A DNA stretch of 64,000 bases from Pararhodobacter aggregans (GTDB lineage Bacteria > Pseudomonadota > Alphaproteobacteria > Rhodobacterales > Rhodobacteraceae), in the NCBI RefSeq assembly GCF_003075525.1, contig NZ_QDDR01000004.1, positions 62,001 to 126,000 on the forward strand, given 5' to 3'. Position 1 is the first letter of the stretch; the number at the start of each line of letters is the position of its first letter. The notes under the pieces were generated by a model that did no database searches, had not been told where the DNA came from, and saw only the letters and a program-made list of their open reading frames with translations. Positions 3,788-17,193 of this stretch are shown here, one piece after another. Position numbers and translations under genes: made by a program.

Positions 3788-4966
3788 TCAGGCAGCCTCG
3801 AGGCAGATCGCTACCCCCATACCCCCGCCAATGCAGAGGGACGCCAGACCCTTCTGCGCCCCGCTGCGCCGCATCTCGTGCACCAGGGTGGTGACGATGC
3901 GGTTGCCGCTCGCTGCCAGCGGATGGCCCAGGGCGATGGCCCCGCCGTTCACGTTGATCCGCGCGGGGTCCCAGTCCATGTGCCGGTTGACCGCCAGCGA
4001 CTGGGCGGCGAAGGCCTCGTTGATCTCCAGCCTGTCCAGATCGGCGGCGTTCCACCCCGCCCGGACCAGCGCCGCGCGCGAGGCTTCGACCGGCCCCAGC
4101 CCCATGTCCATCGGGTCGAGCGCGGCGGCGGCGTAGCTGGCGATCCGGGCGAGCGGGGTCAGGTTCAGTTCCCGCATCCGCTGCTCGGACACGACCAGCA
4201 CCGCCGAGGCGCCGTCGTTCAGGCCCGAGGCATTGCCGGCGGTGATCGTCCCCTCGGGGTCGAAGGCCGGCGCCATGGCGGCCAGACGCTCCAGCGTGGT
4301 GGCGCGGGGCGATTCATCCTCGGTCACCACGCGCTCGCCGCCCCGGACCGGCAGGGTGATCGGCACGATCTCATCGGCGAAGAGCCCGGCCTTCTGCGCC
4401 GCCGCCGCCCGCTGCTGCGAGGTCAGCGCGAAGGTATCCTGCGCCTCTCGCGTGATCTGGAAGCGGCGGGCCAGTTGCTCGACCGTGGTGCCCATGTGGA
4501 TGTCGTTGAACACATCCCAGAGGCCGTCGACGACCATCATGTCCTCAAGCGCGAGGTCCCCCATGCGCGCGGGCGCCCGGCTCTGCCGCAGCAGGCGCGG
4601 GGCCTCGGTCATGCTGTCCTGCCCGCTGGCCAGCACGATCCCGGCGTCACCCGCCCGGATCGCCTGCGCGGCAAGATGGATGGATTTTTGCCCGGCGCCG
4701 CAGACCTTGTTGATGGTCATGGCGGGCACCCGGTCGGGGATGCCCGCCCAGATCGCCGCCTGCCGCGCCGGGTTCTGCCCGGCGCCGCCCTGCAGGACCT
4801 GCCCGGCGATCACCTCGTCGATCAGGGCGGGGTCGATCCCGGCATCGGCGATCACGCCGCGCATCACCGCGGCCCCCAGCCGCGCCGCCGGAACCCCGGC
4901 ATAGGCGCCGCCCAGCTTGCCGATCGGTGCGCGGCGCGCAGCGACGATGAAGACACCTGTGGACAT
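3788..4966 (-). CDS. atoB/phaA-like: Acetyl-CoA C-acetyltransferase (thiolase)
   Basis: A 392-residue biosynthetic/degradative thiolase that splits acetoacetyl-CoA into two acetyl-CoA (or the reverse). The three catalytic positions are intact: Cys89 in NKVCGAG, His348 in GHPLAASG, and Cys378 in CIGGGMG. The start is fixed by the Shine-Dalgarno GGAGGA 5 bases upstream; the longer upstream frame would run into the tetR gene. Together with acetoacetyl-CoA synthetase at 7462 and the fatty acid transporter at 5733 it completes acetoacetate breakdown to acetyl-CoA. The promoter carries the shared palindrome at 4987-5002. Confidence 0.95.
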   Translation of the reverse strand: MSTGVFIVAARRAPIGKLGGAYAGVPAARLGAAVMRGVIADAGIDPALIDEVIAGQVLQGGAGQNPARQAAIWAGIPDRVPAMTINKVCGAGQKSIHLAAQAIRAGDAGIVLASGQDSMTEAPRLLRQSRAPARMGDLALEDMMVVDGLWDVFNDIHMGTTVEQLARRFQITREAQDTFALTSQQRAAAAQKAGLFADEIVPITLPVRGGERVVTEDESPRATTLERLAAMAPAFDPEGTITAGNASGLNDGASAVLVVSEQRMRELNLTPLARIASYAAAALDPMDMGLGPVEASRAALVRAGWNAADLDRLEINEAFAAQSLAVNRHMDWDPARINVNGGAIALGHPLAASGNRIVTTLVHEMRRSGAQKGLASLCIGGGMGVAICLEAA

Positions 4967-5031: not shown

Positions 5032-5625
5032 TCAGCCCTTGCGGCAGGCGCGCAGCACCAGGCCCGCGAATTTCTCGGCCAGGGCCTCGATATCGCCCGC
5101 GCGTTGCGGCCCGACCCAGAGGAAGGCGTAGAAATACATGCCCAGCAGGGCCTTCAGCTCGTCGGGATCGACGGCGCGCAGGCGGGCGGTGTCGCGCGCC
5201 TCGTTCATCACCCGCTCCCACAGGCGGAAGTAATCGCCGTGCAGCCTGAGGACCGCGCGGCGGTATTCGGGCGAGAGCGCGTGCACCTCGCGGAAGCAGA
5301 CGGTCATCTCGGCGTTGTCCTGCACCACGGCCTGCATCAGGCCCAGGGACAGCGCGCGGATCCGCTGTTCGGGATCGTCGCTTTGCGCGAGGATCGTCTC
5401 GGCCCCGGCCAGAAGATCGTGCAGATAGACGGTCATGATGTCGAAGAGCAGATCCTCTTTCGACCGGATATGATGATAGAGCGCGCCCTTGCCGTGGTTG
5501 GTGGCGCTGCTCAGCTCGGCGGTGCCGACGCTGCCATAGCCCTTCTCGGCGAAAAGCTGGGCGGCAGTCTTCATGATCGCACGCTTGGTGTCGCTGATCG
5601 GGCGCTTCTCGGCCGGGGTCTGCAT
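5032..5625 (-). CDS. TetR family regulator of acetoacetate genes
   Basis: A 197-residue TetR repressor. The N-terminal HTH is clear (TKRAIMKTAAQLFAEKGYGSVGTAEL, then KGALYHHIRSKEDLLFDI); the C-terminal ligand domain ends in a short basic tail. The start at 5625 has a weak GAGAGAG ribosome site; an alternative Met at 5652 has none. It lies between the thiolase and the transporter on the same strand. Four copies of one palindrome flank its neighbours, so it probably represses its own gene, the thiolase, the transporter and the synthetase, with an acyl-CoA or short-chain acid as ligand (inference). Confidence 0.88.
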   Translation of the reverse strand: MQTPAEKRPISDTKRAIMKTAAQLFAEKGYGSVGTAELSSATNHGKGALYHHIRSKEDLLFDIMTVYLHDLLAGAETILAQSDDPEQRIRALSLGLMQAVVQDNAEMTVCFREVHALSPEYRRAVLRLHGDYFRLWERVMNEARDTARLRAVDPDELKALLGMYFYAFLWVGPQRAGDIEALAEKFAGLVLRACRKG

Positions 5626-5732: not shown

Positions 5733-7097
5733 CTAGAGAATGAGCGGCAACAGCGTCACGCCCGCGCCGAAGATGACCAGACCGAAGATCATCATCACGG
5801 CGGTATAGCCCAGGATGTCGCCGGCGCGCAGCTTGGTCACGCCCAGCAGCGGCAGCATCCACATCGGCTGCAAGCCGTTGGTCAGCTGGTCGCCATAGCC
5901 GAAGGCGATGATGGTCTGGCCCATGTCGGCGCCGATGTTGCGCGCGGCCTCGATCAGGACCGGCCCCTGCACCGCCCATTGGCCGCCGGCCGAGGGCACG
6001 AAGAGGTTGACGATGGCCGAGCTGAGCATGGCGAAGAAGGGGAAGGTGAATTCGGTCGAGATCGACACCAGACCGGCGGCAAAGATGGTGATCAGGCCCG
6101 AGCCCGACATGATCCCCATGATCCCGGCGTAGAACGGGAATTGCAGCGCCACCTGACCGCAGGCGCCGATCGCCTTGTCCACCGCCTGCACATAGGCAAT
6201 CGGCGTGCCATGCGCGGCCATCCCGGCCAGCAGCAGGATGAAGTTCACCATGTTGAGGTTGAGGTCGAAGCCGTTGGTCATGAAATGCCAGACGACATAG
6301 CCCAGGCCCACCACGACCACCGCCCAGCTCATCAGATAGGAGCGTTCCATCCGCGCGGCGACGGTGCGGTCGCGGGCGTCGGTCAGGCTGGCGTCCCCGG
6401 CCAGCGCGTTCTCGGCCGCCGGGGTCGGCGGTTCGGGATCGACGGTGAGGCGCTCATGCTCCGGCGGCTGCATCGCGGCATAGACGAAGGGGATCACCAG
6501 CAGGAAGATCAGCAGCGTCACCAGATTGTAGCCGGTGAGGATGGTGTTCTCGAGGCCGATCAGCCCGATCTCGCTGGACAGGAAATGCCCGGGCGTGTTG
6601 ACCAGCAGCGGCGCCGAGGCCGAGAAGCCGCAGTTGAAGACGATCAGGCCCGAGAAACCGGCCGCGGCGGCCAGCGGGTAATGCACCCGGATGCCGCGCT
6701 CCAGACAGTTCTGGCTGACCCTGCGGGCCGAGATGGCGCCGATAATCAGCCCGAGCCCCCAGCTGATGGCGCCGAAGATCACCGCCAGCGCGGTGATCAT
6801 GACGATGGCCTGCGTCGCGGTCTTGGGGATCCGGGCCACCCGGTCGATGGCGCGTTCGACCGGCGGCGAGGAGGCCAGCACATAGCCGAACAGCAGGATC
6901 ACCGTCATCTGCATGGCGAAGGTCAACAGGTTCCAGAACCCGCCGTACCACAGGCCCACCACCTCGGCCGGGCCGGTCGGGGTGAGCGTCATGGCCAGCA
7001 CGGCGGTGAGGCCGGTCAGCACGATGGCGAAGATGAATGGATTGGGGATGAAGGCGCGCGTGAATGTCGAGCACGCAAGCCCGAGTCGGTATAGCAT
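5733..7097 (-). CDS. atoE: Short-chain fatty acid transporter (AtoE family)
   Basis: A 454-residue inner-membrane permease of the AtoE family, which imports short-chain fatty acids such as acetoacetate or butyrate. It has about 12 hydrophobic segments, the FNCGFSASAPLLVNTPGH motif in the middle and the FVPSAGGQWAVQGP motif near residue 365, both characteristic of the family. The start at 7097 has GGGAGGA as ribosome site; the longer frame adds no family sequence. It lies upstream of tetR and thiolase on the same strand and is divergent from acetoacetyl-CoA synthetase. The operator at 7130-7145 sits 33 bases upstream of the start codon. Confidence 0.93.
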   Translation of the reverse strand: MLYRLGLACSTFTRAFIPNPFIFAIVLTGLTAVLAMTLTPTGPAEVVGLWYGGFWNLLTFAMQMTVILLFGYVLASSPPVERAIDRVARIPKTATQAIVMITALAVIFGAISWGLGLIIGAISARRVSQNCLERGIRVHYPLAAAAGFSGLIVFNCGFSASAPLLVNTPGHFLSSEIGLIGLENTILTGYNLVTLLIFLLVIPFVYAAMQPPEHERLTVDPEPPTPAAENALAGDASLTDARDRTVAARMERSYLMSWAVVVVGLGYVVWHFMTNGFDLNLNMVNFILLLAGMAAHGTPIAYVQAVDKAIGACGQVALQFPFYAGIMGIMSGSGLITIFAAGLVSISTEFTFPFFAMLSSAIVNLFVPSAGGQWAVQGPVLIEAARNIGADMGQTIIAFGYGDQLTNGLQPMWMLPLLGVTKLRAGDILGYTAVMMIFGLVIFGAGVTLLPLIL

Positions 7098-7129
7098 GAT
7101 GGTTCCTCCCTTGGACCCCACGGACCTTG

Positions 7130-7145
7130 TGGACCGAACGGTCTG
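7130..7145. promoter_or_regulatory. Operator palindrome, atoE promoter
   Basis: TGGACCG-AA-CGGTCTG, sharing 13 contiguous bases with the thiolase operator. It is located 33-48 bases upstream of the transporter start codon. Probable TetR site (inference). Confidence 0.65.
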
Positions 7146-7400
7146 ATGCACGATACGCGCGGTTTTCCGCCTGCGTCAATTTAAACTGATCGGTCCGGCG
7201 CGGTTTCTGAGCGGGTTTCCTGAAGGTTTCGTGCTGATGGCAGCCGAAGCAAGGCTGTAGGGAAGGGAATGGCTTGCCTGCGCCTCTGATGAATAATGTG
7301 CGATAAATCAATGGATTGGCTCTGGCTCTGGATGTTCCGTCATGGTTCAAGTCCCGCGGAACAGGCGGTGGTCGAAATTTTTTGCTTGCAGAGACGAGTC

Positions 7401-7461: not shown

Positions 7462-9405
7462 ATGGACAGATCGGTACTCTGGCGGCCAGACGCTGCGGCC
7501 CTGCGGGAAACCGCCCTGGCGCGCTTCGCGCAGGAGAACGGATTCGGGGTCGCGGAATACGAATCGCTGCATGCCTGGAGCATCGCCGATCCCGCCGCCT
7601 TCTGGTCGCGCCTGTGGGATTTCGCGGGCATCAAGGGCGAAAAGGGCAGCGTCGCGCTGCACCGCGACCCCGCCGCCTGGATGACTGGCGCGCGATTCTT
7701 CCCCGAGGCGCGGCTCAACATGGCGGAGAACCTGCTGGCCCGCGCCGACGCCGCGCAGGCGGTGATCGAGCTGGACGAATCGGGCAACCGCCGGGCTCTT
7801 TCGGCCGATCAGCTGCGGGCCGAAGTGGCGCGGGTCGCCCGCGGCCTGCGCGCGGCGGGCGTGGTCAAGGGCGACCGGGTGGCGGCGATCCTGCCGAACC
7901 GGATCGACTGTCTGGTCACGCTGCTGGCCTCGCTCGCCATCGGCGCGGTCTGGACCTCGTGCTCGCCCGATTTCGGCGCGGCGGCAATCCTCGACCGGAT
8001 CGGGCAGGTGCAGCCGAAGGTCCTGTTCGCCCAGACCCGCGTGACCTATGGCGGCAAGAGCGTCGACCTCACCTCCCGCATCGCCGAGATCGCGGGGCAG
8101 ATCCCCGAGCTGGGCGCGCTGGTGCTGGTCGGTTCCGGGGCCGAGGCGATGGACCGCCCCTCGATCCTCTGGGAGGCGTTCGGCAGCCCGGGCGCCTTGG
8201 ACTTCGCGCCGCTCGCCTTCGATGACCCCTGCTATATCCTCTATACCTCGGGCACGACCGGGGCGCCCAAGGCCATCGTTCACCGCACCGGCGGCGTGCT
8301 GCTGCAGAAGCTGAAAGAGCATCTGCTGCACGGCGATGTGCGGCCGGGCGACCGCTTCCTGTGGTACACCAACACCGCGTGGATGATGTATCATTGGGTC
8401 GTCGCCAGCATGGGCTGCGGCGCCACGCTGGTGCTCTATGACGGCGCGCCGATCCTGAAGCGGGACGGCGGCTATGAGTGCGGGCCACTCTGGCGCGCGG
8501 TCGAGGCCGAGGGGATCACCCATCTGGGCATCAGCCCGAAATACCTGTCGACGCTGATGGAGCAGGGTTATCGCCCCGGCGCCGAGCACGACCTGTCGTC
8601 GCTGCGCTGGCTGATGTCGGCGGGCAGCCCGGTGTCGCCGGATCAATACGACTGGATCTATGACGCGGTCGGGAAGCACCCGGGCTTTGCCTCGATCTCG
8701 GGCGGGACCGAGATCATGGGCTGCTTCCTGCTGGGCTCGCCGCTGCATCCGGTCAAGCGCGGGCAGCTGACGGTCAAGGCCCTCGGCATGGCGGTCAATG
8801 TGCTGGACGAGCGCGGCGCCCCGGTGCGCGGCCGCCCGGGCGAGCTGGTCTGCACCGAGCCCTTCCCCTCGATGCCCGCGACTTTCTGGGGCGAGGGGGG
8901 TGCCGCGCGCTACCGCAAGAGCTATTTCGCCGACCGGCCCGAGATCTGGACCCATGGCGACCATGCGACGCTGAACATCGACGGCACGGCGGTGATCCAT
9001 GGCCGCTCGGATTGCACGCTGAACCCGGGCGGGGTGCGGATCGGCACGGCCGATATCTACAACGTCTGCCAGAAATTCCCCGAACTGACCGACGCGCTGG
9101 TCTTCGGCCGCGCGGTGCCGGGGGATGAGGAAATCGTCCTCTGCGTCAAGCTGGCCGAAGCGGCCGACCTGACCCCGGATCTGGCGCAGGCGATCCGCTC
9201 GCGGGTCCGCGCCGAATGTTCGCCCCGCCATGTGCCGGGCGCGATCTATGCGGTGGCCGACATCCCGATGACGGTGAACGGCAAGCGGGTCGAGGGCGCG
9301 GCGCGGTCCATCGTCGCCGGGCAGGTGGTGGCCAACCTCGCCTCGCTCGCCAATGCGGATTGCCTGGCGGAATACGCCGCGCTTTCGGAAAGGACCGCGC
9401 TATGA
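7462..9405 (+). CDS. aacS: Acetoacetyl-CoA synthetase (acetoacetate-CoA ligase)
   Basis: A 647-residue ANL-superfamily ligase that converts acetoacetate, ATP and CoA to acetoacetyl-CoA. The AACS type is recognised by the N-terminal ARFPAE-like segment GARFFPEARLNMAENLL, the phosphate loop LYTSGTTGAPK near residue 260, the segment WMMYHWVVASMGCGATLVLYDG, the SGGTEI motif and the C-terminal catalytic lysine in VNGKRVEGA near residue 606. The length matches the family. The start has a strong GGGAGGGGG ribosome site. With the transporter and thiolase it completes acetoacetate use. Its stop overlaps the next start by ATGA, so the thiolase-like/DUF35/MaoC genes downstream are in the same operon. 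Confidence 0.96.
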   Translation: MDRSVLWRPDAAALRETALARFAQENGFGVAEYESLHAWSIADPAAFWSRLWDFAGIKGEKGSVALHRDPAAWMTGARFFPEARLNMAENLLARADAAQAVIELDESGNRRALSADQLRAEVARVARGLRAAGVVKGDRVAAILPNRIDCLVTLLASLAIGAVWTSCSPDFGAAAILDRIGQVQPKVLFAQTRVTYGGKSVDLTSRIAEIAGQIPELGALVLVGSGAEAMDRPSILWEAFGSPGALDFAPLAFDDPCYILYTSGTTGAPKAIVHRTGGVLLQKLKEHLLHGDVRPGDRFLWYTNTAWMMYHWVVASMGCGATLVLYDGAPILKRDGGYECGPLWRAVEAEGITHLGISPKYLSTLMEQGYRPGAEHDLSSLRWLMSAGSPVSPDQYDWIYDAVGKHPGFASISGGTEIMGCFLLGSPLHPVKRGQLTVKALGMAVNVLDERGAPVRGRPGELVCTEPFPSMPATFWGEGGAARYRKSYFADRPEIWTHGDHATLNIDGTAVIHGRSDCTLNPGGVRIGTADIYNVCQKFPELTDALVFGRAVPGDEEIVLCVKLAEAADLTPDLAQAIRSRVRAECSPRHVPGAIYAVADIPMTVNGKRVEGAARSIVAGQVVANLASLANADCLAEYAALSERTAL

Positions 9406-10547
9406 GGCCGCAGGCCGCACTGATCGGCGTGGGCTCGCTGGCCCCGCAACGACGGACCGAGGGCGCCTCGACGCTGGGCATGCTGGCCCGGGCCGCGAAA
9501 GCCGCGCTGGACGATTCCGGGCTGGAGAAATCCGCCATCGACGGGCTGCTGGTCGGCCCGCAGGTCGGCGAGACGCCGCAGCATGTGCCGGCGACCGTGG
9601 CCGAATATCTGGGCCTGCAGCCGGTCATGGGCAATGTCGTCGATCTGGGCGGGGCCTCGGGCCCCGGGATGATCTGGCGGGCGGCGGCGGCGATTCAGGC
9701 GGGGATGTGCGAGACGGTGCTCTGCGTCATCGGCAACCACCGCAACCCCGAGGCACCGCGCAGCCCCAACCGCAACCCGATCCGCGAATTCGACGTGCCC
9801 TTCGGCGCCTCGGGCGCGAATATCTCCTACGCGCTGCTGAAACAGGCGCATATGGCGCGCTATGGCAGCACGGACGAGGATTTCGCCCTGATCGCCCATT
9901 GGGCGCGGGCCAATGCCCAGCGGATGCCGGAGGCGATCTTTCACGGCCAGCCCGCCAGCGTCGACGAGGTTCTGGCCTCGCCCCTGGTGGCAAGCCCGCT
10001 GCATCTGTTCGAGATCGTCATGCCGGTTGCGGGGGCCGAGGCGGTGATCGTCACCTCCGCCGCGCGGGCGAAGGGCAGGCGCGCGGCCTATCTGCTGGGC
10101 GCGGGCGAAAAGATCACCCACCGCGCGGTCAGCCAGGCGCCGGATCTGACCTCGGGGCCGCTGAAACCCTCGATGACGCGGGCCTTCGCGCAATCGGGGC
10201 TGGGCGTGGAGCGGATGTCGCTGCTCTCGCTCTATGATTGCTACACGATCATGGTGGCGACGACGCTGGAGGACAGCGGGCTCTGCCCGCCCGGCCAGTT
10301 CGGCGCCTTCATGCGGGCGCATGATTTCGGGCCCGAGGGCGATTGGCCGCTGAACACCCATGGCGGGCAGCTGGGCTATGGCCAGCCGGATCTGGCCGGT
10401 GGCATGACCCATGTGACCGAAGCCGTGCGCCAGCTGCGCGGCAGCGCCGAGGGGCGGCAGATCAAGGATGCGGAATTCGCGCTGGTGACGGGCAACGGGG
10501 CCACCATGTCCGAAGCCGTGGCGCTTGTCCTGGGAGCCGAGCCATGA
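9402..10547 (+). CDS. Thiolase-fold protein with aldolase-type active site (Ltp2-like)
   Basis: A 381-residue member of the SCP2-thiolase/lipid-transfer-protein branch. The residues needed for thiolysis are missing. The nucleophilic Cys of the usual CASG motif is Gly84 (DLGGASGPGM). The His of the usual HDCF motif is Tyr278 (LYDCYTIMV). The GHPxGATG loop is replaced by GYGQPDLAGG with Tyr326. Tyrosines at these two positions and a DUF35 partner are known from Ltp2-type retro-aldolases of steroid side-chain degradation. A DUF35 gene and a MaoC hydratase follow directly. The natural substrate is unknown; carbon-carbon cleavage of a beta-hydroxyacyl-CoA is the best guess. Confidence 0.82.
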   Translation: MRPQAALIGVGSLAPQRRTEGASTLGMLARAAKAALDDSGLEKSAIDGLLVGPQVGETPQHVPATVAEYLGLQPVMGNVVDLGGASGPGMIWRAAAAIQAGMCETVLCVIGNHRNPEAPRSPNRNPIREFDVPFGASGANISYALLKQAHMARYGSTDEDFALIAHWARANAQRMPEAIFHGQPASVDEVLASPLVASPLHLFEIVMPVAGAEAVIVTSAARAKGRRAAYLLGAGEKITHRAVSQAPDLTSGPLKPSMTRAFAQSGLGVERMSLLSLYDCYTIMVATTLEDSGLCPPGQFGAFMRAHDFGPEGDWPLNTHGGQLGYGQPDLAGGMTHVTEAVRQLRGSAEGRQIKDAEFALVTGNGATMSEAVALVLGAEP

Positions 10548-10948
10548 CCGACCTTTCCACCCTCAAGGTCCCCGGGCCGACCGAGATTGCGCTGACGCAA
10601 CCCTTCTGGGACGCCGCCGCCGAGGGGCGTCTGGTGATCCCGCATTGCCGCGCCTGCGATCAGCCCTTCTTCTACCCGCGCGAGATCTGTCCGCATTGCT
10701 GGGCCGATGCCTGGGACTGGCGTCAGGCCAGCGGGCAGGGCCGGTTGAAGAGCTTCAGCATGGTCTGGAAACCGGGTCATCCCGGCTGGGCCCCCGCCGC
10801 GCCCTATGCCGTGGGGCTGGTCGCGCTGGCCGAGGGGCCGGTGATGCTGAGCCATATCCTGAGCCCTGCGCCGGTGGTCGGCATGGTCCTGACGCTGGCG
10901 CCCACCGACATTGGCGGGCGGGTGCTGCCCGCCTTCCGCCCCGCCTGA
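10544..10948 (+). CDS. DUF35 OB-fold/zinc-ribbon protein
   Basis: A 134-residue DUF35 protein. The N-terminal helix (TQPFWDAAAEGRLVIPHC) leads to a rubredoxin-like zinc ribbon with Cys35-x2-Cys38 and Cys49-x2-Cys52, followed by an OB-fold (residues 60-125). Such proteins are obligate partners of SCP2-type thiolase-fold enzymes, shaping the acyl-CoA pocket or supporting the fold. It overlaps the thiolase-like gene by ATGA, which supports a heteromeric complex of the two. Confidence 0.92.
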   Translation: MTDLSTLKVPGPTEIALTQPFWDAAAEGRLVIPHCRACDQPFFYPREICPHCWADAWDWRQASGQGRLKSFSMVWKPGHPGWAPAAPYAVGLVALAEGPVMLSHILSPAPVVGMVLTLAPTDIGGRVLPAFRPA

Positions 10949-10971
10949 AACTCAATGCCAAGGAGCACGCA

Positions 10972-11418
10972 ATGACCACGAAAAACGGCTGGACCGGCAC
11001 GATCAACGGAATGCCCCGGGTGGGGCAGGCGGCCGAACGCAGCCGCACCACCTCGATGGCGGATATCGAGGCCTTCACCGCCATGACCGGCGACCGCAAC
11101 CCGGTGCATTACGACGAGGCGCTGGCCAGCAAGACCGCTTTCGGCAAGCTGATCGTGCAGGGCGGCGTCACCACCGGCATTCTCAACGCCGTGGTGGCCG
11201 AGGATCTGCCGGGGCCGGGGACGGTGTTCCTGAACACCAACCTCAACTTCCGCAAGGCGGTGGGCGTCGGCGAGACGATCACGGGCCGGGTCGAGGTTCT
11301 GACCGTGCGCGAGGACAAGCCGCTTTGCACGCTCAAGGTCAGCGTCACCGACAGCACCGGCGCGATCTGCGTCGAGGGCGAGGCGACGACCTTCACCATG
11401 CCGCTCGAAGGGCTCTGA
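10972..11418 (+). CDS. MaoC family (R)-specific enoyl-CoA hydratase
   Basis: A 148-residue hot-dog-fold hydratase of the MaoC type, adding water across the double bond of an enoyl-CoA. The hydratase-2 motif is present: FTAMTGDRNPVHYDEALA with Asp41 and His46 as catalytic pair. The start at 10972 follows AAGGAGC by 6 bases. Placed after the thiolase-fold/DUF35 pair, it would supply the beta-hydroxyacyl-CoA that an Ltp2-like aldolase cleaves, as in steroid side-chain degradation. The two stretches NLNFRKAVGVGETI and VEGEATTF are also typical. Confidence 0.92.
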   Translation: MTTKNGWTGTINGMPRVGQAAERSRTTSMADIEAFTAMTGDRNPVHYDEALASKTAFGKLIVQGGVTTGILNAVVAEDLPGPGTVFLNTNLNFRKAVGVGETITGRVEVLTVREDKPLCTLKVSVTDSTGAICVEGEATTFTMPLEGL

Positions 11419-11419
11419 C

Positions 11420-12640
11420 ATGACCCCCGCCCCGCAGGCCGAGGGCCGCTGGCGCATGCTGGCCATCCTCTGTCTGGGGGTGGCGGGGGTGCTGGCGACC
11501 TGGTTCTCGGCCACGGCGATCCTGCCGGAACTGGTCACGCTCTGGGACCTGGACGCCGCGCGGACCTCGTGGCTGACCAATGCGGTGCAGCTGGGGTTCG
11601 TGGTGGGAGCGATCGGTGCCTCGCTGGTCAATCTGCCCGATATCGTGCCGATGCCGCGGCTGATGGCGGTGTCGGCGGTGCTGGCGGCGGCGTCGAACGC
11701 GGCGCTGCTGGTGGTGGGGCCGGACGGCGCCATCCTCGCGCGCTTCGTCACCGGCGTGGCGCTGGCCGGGGTCTATCCGCCCGCCATGAAGCTGATGGCG
11801 ACCTGGTTCGTGCGGGGGCGGGGGCTGGCCTTGGGCCTTCTGATCGGGGCGCTGACCTTGGGCTCGTCGATGCCGCATCTGGTGCGCGCGCTGGCCGAGG
11901 GGATCGACTGGCGGCTGGTGGTCTGGGTGACCTCGGGTCTGGCGCTGGCCGCCGCACTGGTCTTCGCGAGCATGGTGCATGAAGGGCCCTCGCCCTTCGC
12001 CCGCGCCACCTTCGACCCGCGCCAATCGCTCAGCGTCTTCACCAACCGGCCGCTGTTTCTGGCGAACCTCGGCTATTTCGGCCATATGTGGGAACTCTAC
12101 GCGCTCTGGGCCTGGATCCTCGCCTTCGCCGCCGCGGCCGAGGCCGGGATGCAGCCCTTTCCCTTCGGCTCGGCCTCGATGCTCAGCTTCGTTGTCGTGG
12201 CCTCGGGCGCGGTCGGCTGCCTTCTGGGCGGCTGGCTGTCGGACCGGATCGGGCGCTGCCTGACCTGCGCCGGGATGATGCTTATCTCGGGCGGCTGCGC
12301 GGCGCTGATCGGCTTCTTCTTCGACGGCCCGCCGCTGGTGCTGGCCCTGATCGCGCTGCTGTGGGGCATCACGGTGATCGGCGACAGCGCGCAATTCTCG
12401 GCCGCGGTCACCGAACTGGCCGAGGGCGCCTTTGTCGGCACGGCGCTGGCCCTGCAGATGGGGCTGGGCTTCGGCCTGACCGTGCTGGCGATCTGGGCCC
12501 TGCCGCATTTCGCCGAATGGATCGGCGGCTGGCGATGGGCCTTCCTGTTCCTCGTGCCCGGACCGCTGATCGGCGCCGCCGCCATGCTGGCCCTGCGCCG
12601 CCTGCCCGAGGCGACGCGGCTGGCCCAGGGCGCGCGCTGA
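11420..12640 (+). CDS. MFS transporter
   Basis: A 406-residue major facilitator carrier with 12 hydrophobic segments. The start lies 1 base after the MaoC stop. The cytoplasmic loop motif GGWLSDRIGR after helix 8 and the ARFVTGVALAGVYPPAMKL segment of helix 4 are typical of organic-acid MFS members. As last gene of the operon that starts with acetoacetyl-CoA synthetase, it probably imports the substrate degraded by the ligase/aldolase module, or exports a product. It is convergent with the next gene. Confidence 0.88.
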   Translation: MTPAPQAEGRWRMLAILCLGVAGVLATWFSATAILPELVTLWDLDAARTSWLTNAVQLGFVVGAIGASLVNLPDIVPMPRLMAVSAVLAAASNAALLVVGPDGAILARFVTGVALAGVYPPAMKLMATWFVRGRGLALGLLIGALTLGSSMPHLVRALAEGIDWRLVVWVTSGLALAAALVFASMVHEGPSPFARATFDPRQSLSVFTNRPLFLANLGYFGHMWELYALWAWILAFAAAAEAGMQPFPFGSASMLSFVVVASGAVGCLLGGWLSDRIGRCLTCAGMMLISGGCAALIGFFFDGPPLVLALIALLWGITVIGDSAQFSAAVTELAEGAFVGTALALQMGLGFGLTVLAIWALPHFAEWIGGWRWAFLFLVPGPLIGAAAMLALRRLPEATRLAQGAR

Positions 12641-13521: not shown

Positions 13522-14013
13522 TCAGACACCCTCGCTTTCGGCGCGGGCCAGCGTCAGGACCATGACCTGACCGGCCTGATCGTCCTGCTCCCGGGCCAGC
13601 GCCCGGCGCAGATGGGGCAGGGCGGCGCGCCGGTCCAGCGCATCCAGCGCCATGGCGACATGGATCCGGGTGCGCCATTCGGGGCTTTTCAGCCCGGCGG
13701 CCACGGCCTCGAAATGGCAACCGGGCACCCGGCAGAGGATTGCGTGCAGCAGGTCCTGCACCCGGAGCAGCTCGTTCAGGGCGGTGCGGTCCCAGTCCTG
13801 CACCGCGCGCCGCTCGCAGGCGAGCTCGTCGAGCCAGGCGATGGCTGCCGCGATCTCTTCCTCGCCGCATTGCGCGCCGATGGCGGCGACCATTGCCTCG
13901 GGCACCCGGCTCAGGGGTTTGAGGTCGCACAGCGCCCGATGGACCAGCGCGGCAAGGGCAGAGACGGGTTGCGGGATCGGGCCCTCGGCCTGGTGGTGCA
14001 TCTGTTGGATCAT
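13522..14013 (-). CDS. HEAT-repeat-like protein of unknown function (163 aa)
   Basis: A 163-residue all-helical protein. The C-terminal third (SPEWRTRIHVAMALDALDRRAALPHLRRALARE) looks like HEAT-type repeats, which mediate protein contacts. The N-terminus is polar (MIQQMHHQAEGPIPQ). Three or four cysteines are scattered and no enzyme motif is visible. I chose the Met at 14013, preceded by a G-rich ribosome site; the longer open frame upstream is arginine/serine-rich non-coding-looking sequence. It is divergent from the sensor kinase gene, so a link to that signalling system is possible. Confidence 0.6.
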   Translation of the reverse strand: MIQQMHHQAEGPIPQPVSALAALVHRALCDLKPLSRVPEAMVAAIGAQCGEEEIAAAIAWLDELACERRAVQDWDRTALNELLRVQDLLHAILCRVPGCHFEAVAAGLKSPEWRTRIHVAMALDALDRRAALPHLRRALAREQDDQAGQVMVLTLARAESEGV

Positions 14014-14107
14014 GCTCTGGCCCCCCGTCGGCCCCCCGGTACGCGCAACCGGCACCCGGTCGCGTGCCGTACGGGGCGCGAGACTACGCGCCCCGCGCGC
14101 CCGCGCA

Positions 14108-14213
14108 CCCCCCCGTTCAGGGGGGCTGAGGACTTGGGATCTGGTGCGGAGACCGGACATATGGTCCAGTTCGCCAGTACCGGGCCGAACCGGCGCCCCT
14201 CTGTTCAGGGGGG
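14108..14213. repeat. Two CCCC-GTTCA-GGGG inverted repeats upstream of the sensor kinase
   Basis: Two related sites: 14109-14125 is a C-tract, GTTCA, G-tract hairpin; 14196-14213 reads CCCC-TCTGTTCA-GGGGGG. Both share GTTCAGGGGGG in the same orientation and are about 88 bases apart in the divergent region 14014-14248. They could be binding sites for the response regulator at 16537 or just GC-tract hairpins. Confidence 0.4.
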
Positions 14214-14251
14214 CCACGGCAGGCCGGACGGGACCGAGATGTCGAGGGATG

Positions 14252-16540
14252 ATGACGGCGATGCAAGACCGGCGCTCTGACCGAAGGATGCCGACCCCGG
14301 GCAGGCCTGCGGCCCTGACGCGTCGGCTGGCGCCCAGTCTGGCCCTCTTGGCTGCCGTCGCGCTGAGTGTCCTTTTCGCCGGGGTGATGCTGGGCCTCGC
14401 GACCAGCCGCCCCTGGCTTGGCCTGTCGCTGAGCCCGGTCCCGCCGGTCGCCAAGGCCGAAGAGGACGGCGCGCTCTGGCTGATCGAGGCCGAGGGGCCG
14501 GCGGCACGGGCAGGTGTTCCCTCCGCCGCGGCCCGGGTGCTGAGCGTCGCCGGTGCCGGGGGCGCGGTCACCCTGAACGGCGCCGACCTGATCGAGGAGC
14601 CCGACGCGCTGCCAAGCTATGCCGCGATGACCGAGTATTTCGCGCGTCAGGACCGGATCGCGGCGCTGATGGGCGGGCCGGTCGAACCCGGGCCGGTCGA
14701 ACTCGGGCCGATCGAACTTGGGCTGGCCGAACCCGGTGAGGACGGAGCCGAGGCCGCCGCACCCCCGGCCCTCTACCGGATCACGCCCGAGGCGCGGCGC
14801 CCCCTGACCAGCCTGCCCGTCGCCTTCTGGATGCAGATCGGCGTCGGTCTGGCCGGGTTCTGGATCGGCGTCTGGATCTGGGCGCTGCGCCGGGGTGATT
14901 GGGCGGCGCGGTTTCTGGCGCTGGCGGGGGCGGGGCTGATGATCTCGGCCTTTCCCGCCGCGGTCTATTCGACGCGGGAACTGGCGCTGCCCGATCCGCT
15001 GTTCCGGGCCCTGTCGTCGCTCAACGCCACCGGGTCGCTGACCTTCGGCGTCGGCATGATCGGCCTTTTCCTGATCTATCCGCGCCGTCTGGTCCGGGAT
15101 CGGTTTCTGCTGTTGCCGGCGCTCGTGCTGGGGCTGTGGCGGCTGGCCGATGCCCTGGAATGGGCGTCGGGGCCCGCCCTGGGCCGCCATCTGGCGATCC
15201 TGACCGCAATGCTGGTCATCGTCGTTCTGGTCGCCCTGCAATTCCGCGCCACCAAGGGCGATCCGCGCGACCGGGCCGCGCTGGCCTGGCTGGGCCTGGC
15301 GGTGATCGTCGGCGCGGGAACCTTCGTGGCGACGGTGATCCTGCCCGTCGCCCTCGGCATCGACGCGCTGCTGTCGCAGGGCCAGGCCTTCCTGTTCTTC
15401 CTGCTGATCTATGGCGGGGTGGCGCTGGGGGTTGCCCGCTACCGGCTGTTCCAGCTGGACGATTGGGCGTTCCGTATCCTGTTCTACGTGGTGGGCGTGC
15501 TGCTGCTGCTGGTGCTTGACGCCCTGCTGATCGTCACCGTCATCGACGAGCGCGCCCCGGCCTTTGCCCTGTCGCTGCTGGTGGTCGGGCTCGTCTGGCT
15601 GCCGCTGCGCGACATGCTGGCCCGGCTGGTGCTGCGGCGGACCGATCCGGTGCAGGGCGCGCTGTTCCGGCAGGTGATGGATGTGGCGCTGACCCCGCCC
15701 GGCCGCGACCAGCGCGCGCGCTGGGGCGCGCTGCTGGAGGGGCTGTTCCATCCCCTCACCCTGACCCCGCAGGAGGACGCCGTGCATTCGGCCCTCACCG
15801 ACGAGGGGGGCGGGCTTGTGGTGGGCGGTGCGGGCGGCCTGCCCGGCTACCGGCTGGAATACGCGGGGCAGGGGCGCAAGCTTTTCGCGCCCGCCGATGT
15901 GACGCTGGTGGACGAATTGCGGGCGATGCTGACCAACGCGCTGGAAAGCCGCGCGGCCTATGAAAAGGGCGTGGCCGAGGAACGGCTGCGCATCGCCCGC
16001 GATATCCACGACAATATCGGCGTCCAGCTGATGGGCGCGCTGCACAGCCACGAGGTCCGGCGCAAGGACCAGCTGATCCGCGAGACGCTGACTGACCTTC
16101 GGGATATCGTGAACAATGCCAGCAACCCGGATCTGTCCTTCGAGGAATTGCTGGCCGATCTGCGTGCGCAGATCTCGGAGCATGTTTTCGCCGCCGGGGT
16201 GCGGATGGACTGGCGGGCCGAGGGGGGCGACGCGGTGATCCTGCCGCTGGCCAAGGCCCATACCCTGCGGTCGGTGGTGCGCGAAGCGGTGCAGAACGCG
16301 CTGAAACACGCCGACCCCGGGCTGGTCCGCATCGTCATCCGGCTGGGCGCGGACATGATCGACGTCAGGGTCGAGGACGACGGCAAGGGGTTCGACGTGG
16401 CAAATGAGCATCGCGGCAACGGGCTGGAGAACATGCGCGCCCGGATCACCAGCCTGGGCGGGCAATTCTCGCTGGTCAGCGGCGCGGCGGGCACGCGGAT
16501 CGAGGCGCAGTTTCCCTATGAAGCCGGGCGGGTGCGATGA
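14252..16540 (+). CDS. Polytopic sensor histidine kinase, NarX/DesK class
   Basis: About 762 residues. A first membrane helix (around 25-50) is followed by an extracytoplasmic segment that looks PDZ-like (LGLSLS...GPAARAGV...ARVLSV) and an acidic PVEPGPVELGPIELG repeat. Then come about nine membrane helices (residues 175-460). A cytoplasmic HisKA_3 dimerisation helix holds the phospho-acceptor His586 in RIARDIHDNIGVQ, and the ATPase domain has an N-box REAVQNALKHA and G-box DDGKGFD. Starts at 14249, 14252 or 14261 are all possible; GAGGG at 14244-14248 favours 14252. It is coupled to the response regulator by an ATGA overlap. The stimulus is unknown. Confidence 0.85.
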   Translation: MTAMQDRRSDRRMPTPGRPAALTRRLAPSLALLAAVALSVLFAGVMLGLATSRPWLGLSLSPVPPVAKAEEDGALWLIEAEGPAARAGVPSAAARVLSVAGAGGAVTLNGADLIEEPDALPSYAAMTEYFARQDRIAALMGGPVEPGPVELGPIELGLAEPGEDGAEAAAPPALYRITPEARRPLTSLPVAFWMQIGVGLAGFWIGVWIWALRRGDWAARFLALAGAGLMISAFPAAVYSTRELALPDPLFRALSSLNATGSLTFGVGMIGLFLIYPRRLVRDRFLLLPALVLGLWRLADALEWASGPALGRHLAILTAMLVIVVLVALQFRATKGDPRDRAALAWLGLAVIVGAGTFVATVILPVALGIDALLSQGQAFLFFLLIYGGVALGVARYRLFQLDDWAFRILFYVVGVLLLLVLDALLIVTVIDERAPAFALSLLVVGLVWLPLRDMLARLVLRRTDPVQGALFRQVMDVALTPPGRDQRARWGALLEGLFHPLTLTPQEDAVHSALTDEGGGLVVGGAGGLPGYRLEYAGQGRKLFAPADVTLVDELRAMLTNALESRAAYEKGVAEERLRIARDIHDNIGVQLMGALHSHEVRRKDQLIRETLTDLRDIVNNASNPDLSFEELLADLRAQISEHVFAAGVRMDWRAEGGDAVILPLAKAHTLRSVVREAVQNALKHADPGLVRIVIRLGADMIDVRVEDDGKGFDVANEHRGNGLENMRARITSLGGQFSLVSGAAGTRIEAQFPYEAGRVR

Positions 16541-17193
16541 TGACACGGGTCTTGATCGTCGAGGATCTGAGCGAGACGCGCCGCTGGCTGGCCGAGATCG
16601 TCACCACCGCCTTTCCCGGTTGCGAGATCCACGAGGCCGCCAGCATGCGCGCGGGCATCGGCCAGGTGGCGGCGCGGGATTTCGACGTGGCGCTGATCGA
16701 CCTCGGCCTGCCGGATGGCTCGGGCCTCGATGTGATGCGCAACCTGCGCCTTCTGCGGCCGCAGACGATCTGCGTCGTGACCACGGTGATGGGGGACGAT
16801 GCCTCGATCGTCGGGGCGCTGTCGGCCGGGGCGCAGGGGTATCTGTTGAAGGAACAGCCGCAGGACCTGCTGACCCGGCAGCTGCGGCAGATGGCCGAGG
16901 GGATCCCGGCGCTGTCGCCCTCGGTGGCGCGGCGGATCATGGAGCATTTCCGCCGCACCGGCCCCGCCGCCCCCGACGACGACCTGACCGCGCGTGAGCG
17001 CGAGGTGCTGGGCCTGATCGGCCGCGGCCTGCGCAACGGCGAAGTGGCGGCGCAGCTGACCATCGCCGAGACCACGGTCGCGGGCTACATCAAGTCGATC
17101 TACCGCAAACTGGGCATCTCCTCGCGCGCCGAGGCCTCGTGGCACGCCGCCCGGCTGGGGCTGAGCGACGATCTGACCGGGAACCGTCGGTAA
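16537..17193 (+). CDS. LuxR/NarL family response regulator
   Basis: A 218-residue two-component regulator. The receiver domain covers residues 1-125 with phospho-acceptor Asp55 (VALIDLGLPDGSG), the conserved early acidic pair ED at 9-10 and Lys in YLLKEQP. A LuxR-type HTH spans about 150-210 (LTAREREVLGLIGRGLRNGEVAAQL). Its start overlaps the sensor kinase stop, so the two form a cognate pair. Targets may include the divergent gene at 13522 and its own promoter region, where two GC inverted repeats lie. Confidence 0.93.
   Translation: MMTRVLIVEDLSETRRWLAEIVTTAFPGCEIHEAASMRAGIGQVAARDFDVALIDLGLPDGSGLDVMRNLRLLRPQTICVVTTVMGDDASIVGALSAGAQGYLLKEQPQDLLTRQLRQMAEGIPALSPSVARRIMEHFRRTGPAAPDDDLTAREREVLGLIGRGLRNGEVAAQLTIAETTVAGYIKSIYRKLGISSRAEASWHAARLGLSDDLTGNRR

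Follow-up and report, generated by a model that had tools for sequence, protein, structure and literature searches.

In our literature search on thiolase-fold retro-aldolases, the relevant matches were studies of the steroid enzymes Sal, Ltp2 and Shy. According to passages of PMC12329534, PDB entry 9MYR is CtSal, the bile-acid aldolase of Comamonas testosteroni, in which Tyr302 and Cys304 of a YDCY motif are catalytic: the Y302F variant retains almost no activity, and none was detected for C304A, C304S or C304H (Table 3). The same passages suggest that Gln347 and Gln352 may stabilise the cysteine thiolate, place the acid Tyr344 of Ltp2 at Gln352 of CtSal, describe a Cys3His1 zinc finger as specific to the Shy partner, and mention YDCY homologues in cholesterol-degrading Actinobacteria. 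The association of Shy with Sal runs through DUF35, as stated in part of PMC11321319. Here we analysed a 64,000-nucleotide stretch of Pararhodobacter aggregans DNA (the window; contig NZ_QDDR01000004.1, positions 62,001 to 126,000) that encodes a thiolase-fold protein, P0001, next to a DUF35 protein. Together, the two probably form a coenzyme A (CoA)-dependent retro-aldolase of the Sal type, which belongs to a clade of its own and is untied to steroids.

The translation of P0001 contains GGASG with Gly84, YDCYT with Tyr278 (YDCY spans residues 278-281) and GYGQP (325-329) with Tyr326, as an earlier note on this DNA had correctly read. Its best sequence match in the PDB is 9MYR chain A (E 1.9e-83, 43% identity); Ltp2 (6OK1) matches at E 2.6e-32 and 30% identity. 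The alignment pairs Tyr302, Cys304, Gln347 and Gln352 of CtSal with Tyr278, Cys280, Gln323 and Gln328 of P0001, Gly89 and Asn162 with Gly84 and Asn140, and Tyr165 with Tyr143. When 84,980 species genomes were scanned for the peptide patterns YDCYTIM and VGPQVGET, 147 loci with related genes were confirmed. The best 80 of these, six plasmid loci and the window give the 87 loci used below, and 88 alignment rows since L042 and L069 are the same record. Tyr278, Cys280, Gln323 and Gln328 are invariant in all 88 rows, as are Asn140 and Gly84, which occupies the position of the thiolase nucleophile; Tyr143 is kept in 87, the remaining row having an X. None of 37 paralogs from this and related genomes carries the four equivalents jointly (a first residue table, omitting minus-strand matches, held 23 of them, while the repeat check covered all 37, some being fragments). 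Because the four residues are present throughout the family and never together in the paralogs, their conservation is, as judged from these alignments, more than chance. The conservation of YDCY and of the stretch 52-58 is partly selected, because the search patterns favour YDCY-bearing members; Gln323, Gln328, Gly84 and the 123-131 loop lie outside the patterns.

These comparisons indicate an active site of the Sal type, not of the Ltp2 type. The earlier note had proposed an aldolase-like rather than a thiolase active site, which the sequence comparison backs, and had drawn it after the tyrosine site of Ltp2, which it does not. In the alignment, Tyr344 of Ltp2 falls on Gln328 and the histidine of its YDHF motif on Cys280; with its second tyrosine replaced by glutamine here, Ltp2 was rejected as a template and CtSal is the right one. 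Tyr326, put forward as the second aldolase tyrosine, aligns with Phe350 of CtSal and was rejected as a catalytic acid, the family having Phe at this position in 72 of the 88 rows, Tyr in 12, Cys in three and Val in one. The statement that both catalytic residues of a thiolase are replaced holds for the nucleophilic cysteine (Gly84) and the HDCF histidine (Tyr278), the pair that marks an SCP2-type thiolase, but it overlooked that the HDCF cysteine is retained as Cys280. An ordinary thiolase was rejected on account of Gly84. Since Tyr278, Cys280, Gln323 and Gln328 are kept and Gln328 replaces the second tyrosine of Ltp2, retro-aldol chemistry of the Sal type is predicted.

In a tree of 57 rows, which took 31 of the 88 family rows and 18 paralogs of at least 340 residues among the 23 tabulated, the family forms a single clade (support 100/99) that is sister to the Sal clade (97/85) rather than nested inside it. 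The Sal clade comprises CtSal, a Vibrio gene beside a 311-residue OB-fold protein of Shy size and two Rhodococcus genes. Long-branch flags fell on sequences including Ltp2 and TbSLP, whose placement is unsure, and on neither CtSal nor any family row. The AlphaFold2 model of P0001, built from 46 of the 88 rows (L059 was omitted for an unknown residue), has a mean predicted local distance difference test (pLDDT) value of 81.8 and a predicted template-modelling score of 0.87. A Foldseek search with this model returned 9MYR first (E 3.4e-38, TM 0.88/0.85), followed by 4U4E and Ltp2. At the level of domain models, P0001 matches Thiolase_C_1 of Pfam with an E-value of 3.6e-43, and Thiolase_N with 23.5 bits, under its cut-off of 26.4.

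Other thiolase-like genes came to light around these relatives. In relatives of the window genome (L022, L023, L025, L026, L027, L028 and L035), a YDDY group keeps both glutamines and, with Asp replacing the catalytic cysteine, is possibly another variant of the aldolase active site. Paralogs with YDAF or YDSF and glycine at the nucleophile position (L003, L014, L016-L021, L024, L031-L034 and L036-L040) belong to the wider group of PDB 4U4E, a putative thiolase; a DUF35 match adjoins 15 of the 18. A plasmid of Vibrio alfacsensis from a turbot-gut isolate (L144:6089-10145) carries a Sal-like gene, the 311-residue OB-fold gene and an acyl-CoA synthetase, with an aldehyde dehydrogenase farther away; these genes may form a bile-acid side-chain module.

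The pocket of P0001 differs from that of the steroid enzymes. The loop forming the wall of the steroid site counts 22-24 residues in the family (22 in P0001) versus 39 in CtSal and 32 in Ltp2 over the same columns, and Asn123, Arg124, Asn125, Pro126, Arg128, Glu129, Phe130 and Asp131 within it are invariant in all 88 rows. Given a loop this short and polar, the enzyme probably acts on a small, polar substrate. Thr355 and His59 of CtSal are also changed.

P0001 lies in a plus-strand operon that runs, 5' to 3', from a ligase of the acetoacetyl-CoA synthetase (AACS) family through the thiolase-fold gene, DUF35 and MaoC to a major facilitator superfamily (MFS) transporter. Three further genes (an AtoE-like transporter, a TetR regulator and a true thiolase) are all divergent from it:

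9402..10547, plus strand: predicted Sal-type thiolase-fold aldolase (P0001), 381 residues, with Gly84, Tyr278-Asp-Cys280-Tyr281, Gln323 and Gln328.
10544..10948, plus strand: DUF35 partner, 134 residues, Pfam zf-ChsH2 and OB_ChsH2_C, with the four-cysteine zinc pattern C-x2-C-x10-C-x2-C.
10972..11418, plus strand: MaoC protein, PhaJ-like (R)-enoyl-CoA hydratase, 148 residues, Pfam MaoC_dehydratas, motif GDRNPVH.
7462..9405, plus strand: acetoacetate--CoA ligase family enzyme, 647 residues, Pfam AMP-binding, above the TIGR01217 cut-off.
11420..12640, plus strand: MFS transporter, 406 residues, Pfam MFS_1, last gene of the operon.
3788..4966, minus strand (divergent): true acetyl-CoA acetyltransferase (thiolase), a conserved partner; start estimated from the 392-residue orthologue in L127.
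5032..5625, minus strand: TetR-family regulator; start estimated from the orthologue in L127.
5733..7151, minus strand: AtoE-like short-chain fatty acid transporter, Pfam SCFA_trans.

The ligase stop and the aldolase start share an ATGA at 9402-9405, and the aldolase stop and the DUF35 start share another at 10544-10547. Coordinates and Pfam matches thus bear out the described coupling to DUF35 with MaoC following, as well as the setting in an acetoacetyl-CoA synthetase operon with an MFS carrier, and the ligase operon turns out to be conserved across phyla. The DUF35 gene adjoins the aldolase gene in 87 of 87 loci, an adjacency on which the predicted complex is based. Its four-cysteine pattern is present in 86, the remaining locus having an unread residue in that stretch. 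The partner therefore lacks the features of Shy, in which DUF35 and MaoC are fused and the finger is Cys3His1; here the genes are separate and the cysteines number four. The MaoC protein is most similar to the PhaJ of 1IQ6 (E 9.4e-26), an enzyme that prefers short chains and whose EDFNPLH pairs with GDRNPVH in the alignment. The ligase scores 686.7 bits against the TIGR01217 cut-off of 520.9, is one of three AACS-family genes above that cut-off in the 5.08 Mb genome, and is 39% identical to PDB 4WD1. Positions 306 and 310, which are Gly and Trp in 4WD1 and in the two AACS paralogs of the same genome, are Ala306 and Tyr310 in at least 97% of 82 cluster ligases. This segment presumably lies near the acyl pocket, going by homology to acetyl-CoA synthetase, and a changed acid specificity is possible. 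Behind the operon, a LuxR-type response regulator (16537-17193) follows a long open reading frame (13652-16540) that by eye resembles a membrane sensor kinase; a LuxR-type regulator also stands there in the close relative L041 and was not found in L042.

The family spans Pseudomonadota, Bacilli and Rhodococcus, the 80 scan loci being divided among 52 Alpha-, four Gamma- and two Betaproteobacteria, 21 Bacilli and one unplaced. Among the best 80 of the 147 loci, the closest match to P0001 in a named genome is that of the metagenome-assembled genome RHODO2 (98% identity). The gene is scattered rather than universal, since a match of at least 70% occurs in only 3 of a set of 100 genomes made up of the window genome and those near it.

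Neighbouring genes were counted as present when tblastn gave at least 35% identity (core genes) or at least 45% (MaoC, GntR and sugar genes) within 11 kb, a span sometimes cut by contig ends. On this basis, an AACS-type ligase accompanies the aldolase in 84 of the 87 loci, a true thiolase in 75, MaoC in 66 and MFS in 62. A Rhodococcus opacus plasmid locus scored as ligase-less (L132) has a 654-residue open reading frame in the ligase position. A class II aldolase of the fuculose-phosphate type is present in 45 loci. The binding protein of a sugar ATP-binding cassette (ABC) transporter and a short-chain dehydrogenase/reductase (SDR) each occur in 41; 40 loci have a GntR regulator and 36 a sugar kinase. 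The class II aldolase gene lies downstream on the same strand together with ABC genes in 34 loci, and likewise in one more on a contig that ends early; it closely follows the Sal-type operon without ABC genes in three, and is on the opposite strand upstream in six and downstream in one. Among solved structures, 3L49 and 4WT7 are most closely related to the sugar-binding protein in L127; 4WT7 was reportedly solved with allitol. The query genes were not found together beside the fetched paralogs and Sal-clade genes, a weak control because most of these loci measure only about 4 kb.

Other neighbours are confined to fewer loci. A flavin monooxygenase is common to eight (L099 and seven at 44-56% identity). 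Two marine Alphaproteobacteria have a sulfatase-like gene, recognised by eye, upstream of the operon with ligase and aldolase (L084:6458-8050; L107, from about 5071; 70% identical), which may point to a starting compound that is sulfated or phosphonylated. A GMC-type oxidoreductase with a small subunit is seen in the marine locus L066 (2205-8023) and also in L090, L097 and L110; an electron-transfer flavoprotein and a large iron-sulphur protein accompany it in three of these four.

The proposed route takes its direct support from the sequence, the active-site identity, the clade, the gene neighbourhoods and the predicted fold; from these we infer the reaction, the complex with DUF35 and the substrate. 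The AACS-family ligase would charge an acid to its acyl-CoA and, where present, the PhaJ-like MaoC protein would hydrate an enoyl-CoA to the 3-hydroxyacyl-CoA. By analogy with CtSal, on which the mechanism is modelled throughout, Tyr278 would act as the base that takes the proton of the 3-hydroxyl group, and the C2-C3 bond would break. Cys280, tuned by Gln323 and Gln328, would then serve as the acid that protonates the thioester enolate, giving acetyl-CoA and an aldehyde or ketone, with DUF35 buttressing the aldolase. Thiolysis is not expected because Gly84 leaves no nucleophile. In loci equipped with the sugar module (ABC transporter, SDRs, class II aldolase and sugar kinase), the substrate is perhaps derived from a sugar or cyclitol.

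Several observations weigh against this proposal or narrow it. The proposed oxyanion-hole residues Gln161 and Gly391 of CtSal are Ala139 and Ala367 here, and its CoA-binding Arg216 is Pro194, each in 88 of 88 rows; because of these replacements, either CoA or the enolate would be bound differently or the alignment slips locally, and the changes argue against a mechanism identical to that of CtSal. The model falls below a pLDDT of 50 at 121-139, 202-206 and 324-329, which leaves the confidence in the pocket low, and it therefore supports fold and kinship but not pocket detail. MaoC went unrecognised within the stretch examined in 21 of the 87 loci, 19 of them Bacilli. The adjoining hydratase described in the earlier note is borne out in the window, but it is not an obligatory part. 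An aldehyde dehydrogenase speaks for the proposal, being expected if the product is an aldehyde, and in six loci it lies downstream of the aldolase on the same strand; its presence is, however, limited to seven loci, L066 and six others whose genes are 54-75% identical to that of L066. A simple retro-aldol route does not account for the conserved true thiolase. Because it is so frequent, its presence suggests that the carbonyl product or the product of the ligase ends as a 3-oxoacyl-CoA. Finally, the absence of a steroid pathway is thinly based on one marker family: KshA_C has no match in the window genome, in agreement with the earlier note, and none of 14 control genomes passed the cut-off either, so that the search has no positive control. 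The five zf-ChsH2 matches in the genome lie in open frames of 150-261 codons, shorter than the 311-residue Vibrio partner, and this thin evidence agrees with the neighbourhoods.

A true Sal, that is, an ordinary bile-acid or steroid side-chain aldolase located outside a steroid cluster, would fit the identity of roughly 43% and the four active-site residues shared with CtSal. We nevertheless regard it as improbable, given the separate sister clade (97/85), a DUF35 with four cysteines in 86 of 87 loci instead of a Shy finger and unfused to MaoC, a steroid-side loop of 22 rather than 39 residues, the replacement of Thr355, His59 and Arg216, the lack of a KshA_C match, and a neighbourhood with the AACS ligase, to which sugar genes are added in 45 of 87 loci. 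On most of these grounds a direct steroid role was set aside as unlikely. Cleavage of 3-hydroxy-3-methylglutaryl-CoA (HMG-CoA) or a close analogue, as by HMG-CoA lyase, is somewhat less remote, though still unlikely. In this scheme MaoC would hydrate 3-methylglutaconyl-CoA, the aldolase would yield acetyl-CoA and acetoacetate, the ligase would recharge acetoacetate and the thiolase would split acetoacetyl-CoA. It accounts jointly for all four enzymes and covers small Bacilli operons such as L121 and L123, in which a sodium/solute symporter accompanies thiolase, ligase, aldolase and DUF35; the invariant Arg124 and Arg128 of the pocket loop could hold a carboxylate. It leaves the sugar module of 45 loci unexplained, however, and sits poorly with cluster ligases that differ near the acyl pocket (Ala306, Tyr310) from 4WD1 and two AACS paralogs of the window genome. 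No second HMG-CoA-making enzyme was noticed in the operons read, where no systematic search was made.

Some marine loci bring to mind carnitinyl-CoA, or another quaternary-ammonium 3-hydroxyacyl-CoA, split into acetyl-CoA and betaine aldehyde: their aldehyde dehydrogenase has betaine-aldehyde dehydrogenase as its best NCBIfam model, their flavin monooxygenase is weakly like trimethylamine monooxygenase, and they contain a regulator resembling GbdR as well as a GcvT-like protein whose closest counterpart is trimethylamine N-oxide demethylase. All of these model matches lie under the curated cut-offs, the partner genes occur in few loci and the sugar-catabolic module of 45 loci does not fit, which makes this substrate very improbable. 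We give equally little credence to a role without catalysis, with P0001 as a thiolase-like scaffold or partner protein, or to acyl transfer as in PhlC or BbsB. P0001 does match BbsB and PhlC structures, though less well; the glycine at position 84 in 88 of 88 rows leaves no nucleophile, the Tyr/Cys/Gln set is fully kept, and the NCBIfam model of BbsB (NF053628) gives 88.3 bits against a cut-off of 750. Thiolase-DUF35 pairs are also found in PhlABC, BbsAB and the archaeal thiolase/HMG-CoA synthase complex, according to passages of PMC12329534.

For the Sal-type retro-aldolase proposed here, the nature of the substrate depends on which neighbours are given weight: an HMG-like compound would explain the thiolase but not the sugar module, and a sugar- or cyclitol-like one the reverse. 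We put forward, tentatively and with more doubt than confidence, an undescribed catabolic pathway for polar acids derived from sugars or cyclitols, in which a Sal-type retro-aldolase would take the place of a thiolase in cleaving the acyl-CoA. Its general form fits the synteny; a C7-cyclitol form is a guess. There, a ring-opened gadusol- or valiolone-type ring would give a 3-hydroxy-3-(hydroxymethyl)acyl-CoA, from which the aldolase would free acetyl-CoA and a ketose, and the sugar kinase and class II aldolase would lead on to dihydroxyacetone phosphate. In the literature searched, with bioRxiv and most subscription papers outside its scope, we found neither this gene set nor a non-steroid Sal clade described, and that on mycosporine or HMG gave no lead for the operon. 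The locus is real and well conserved, with a predicted variant of known Sal chemistry, and the earlier interpretation is partly supported. Should the proposal hold, the Tyr/Cys retro-aldol chemistry that was described for bile acids in 2025 would not be confined to steroids, and other bacteria, Bacilli among them, would apply it to different substrates. Small C-C lyases that depend on CoA would then become available for synthesis, proteins so far labelled only 'thiolase family protein' could be better annotated, and the gene set given here would lead to a catabolic pathway.

Compared to known systems, P0001 and its partners come closest to CtSal-CtShy (9MYR), with which they share the thiolase fold, glycine in place of the nucleophilic cysteine, YDCY, both glutamines, an adjoining DUF35 partner gene and a MaoC hydratase close by. 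They differ in the unfused DUF35 and MaoC, the C4 rather than C3H1 zinc pattern, the sister position in the tree, neighbours that are not steroid genes but the AACS-type ligase and, often, sugar genes, and a 22-residue loop with invariant polar residues, together with the replacement of Arg216, Gln161, Gly391, Thr355 and His59. TcLtp2-ChsH2 (6OK1) has the thiolase fold, a DUF35 partner and the first catalytic tyrosine of YDxx in common with P0001, but Gln328 stands for its Tyr344 and Cys280 for the histidine of YDHF, at 30% identity. TbSLP (5AB4-5AB7), a proposed aldolase, resembles P0001 in its YDC motif and in the glycine at the nucleophile position; at 30% identity, it has Leu and Ala where P0001 has the supporting glutamines and, as stated in passages of PMC12329534, no DUF35 partner. 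The benzoylsuccinyl-CoA thiolase BbsAB and the acyltransferase PhlABC share the pairing of a thiolase fold with DUF35, whereas the BbsB and BbsA models score far under their cut-offs and PhlC is a distant match.

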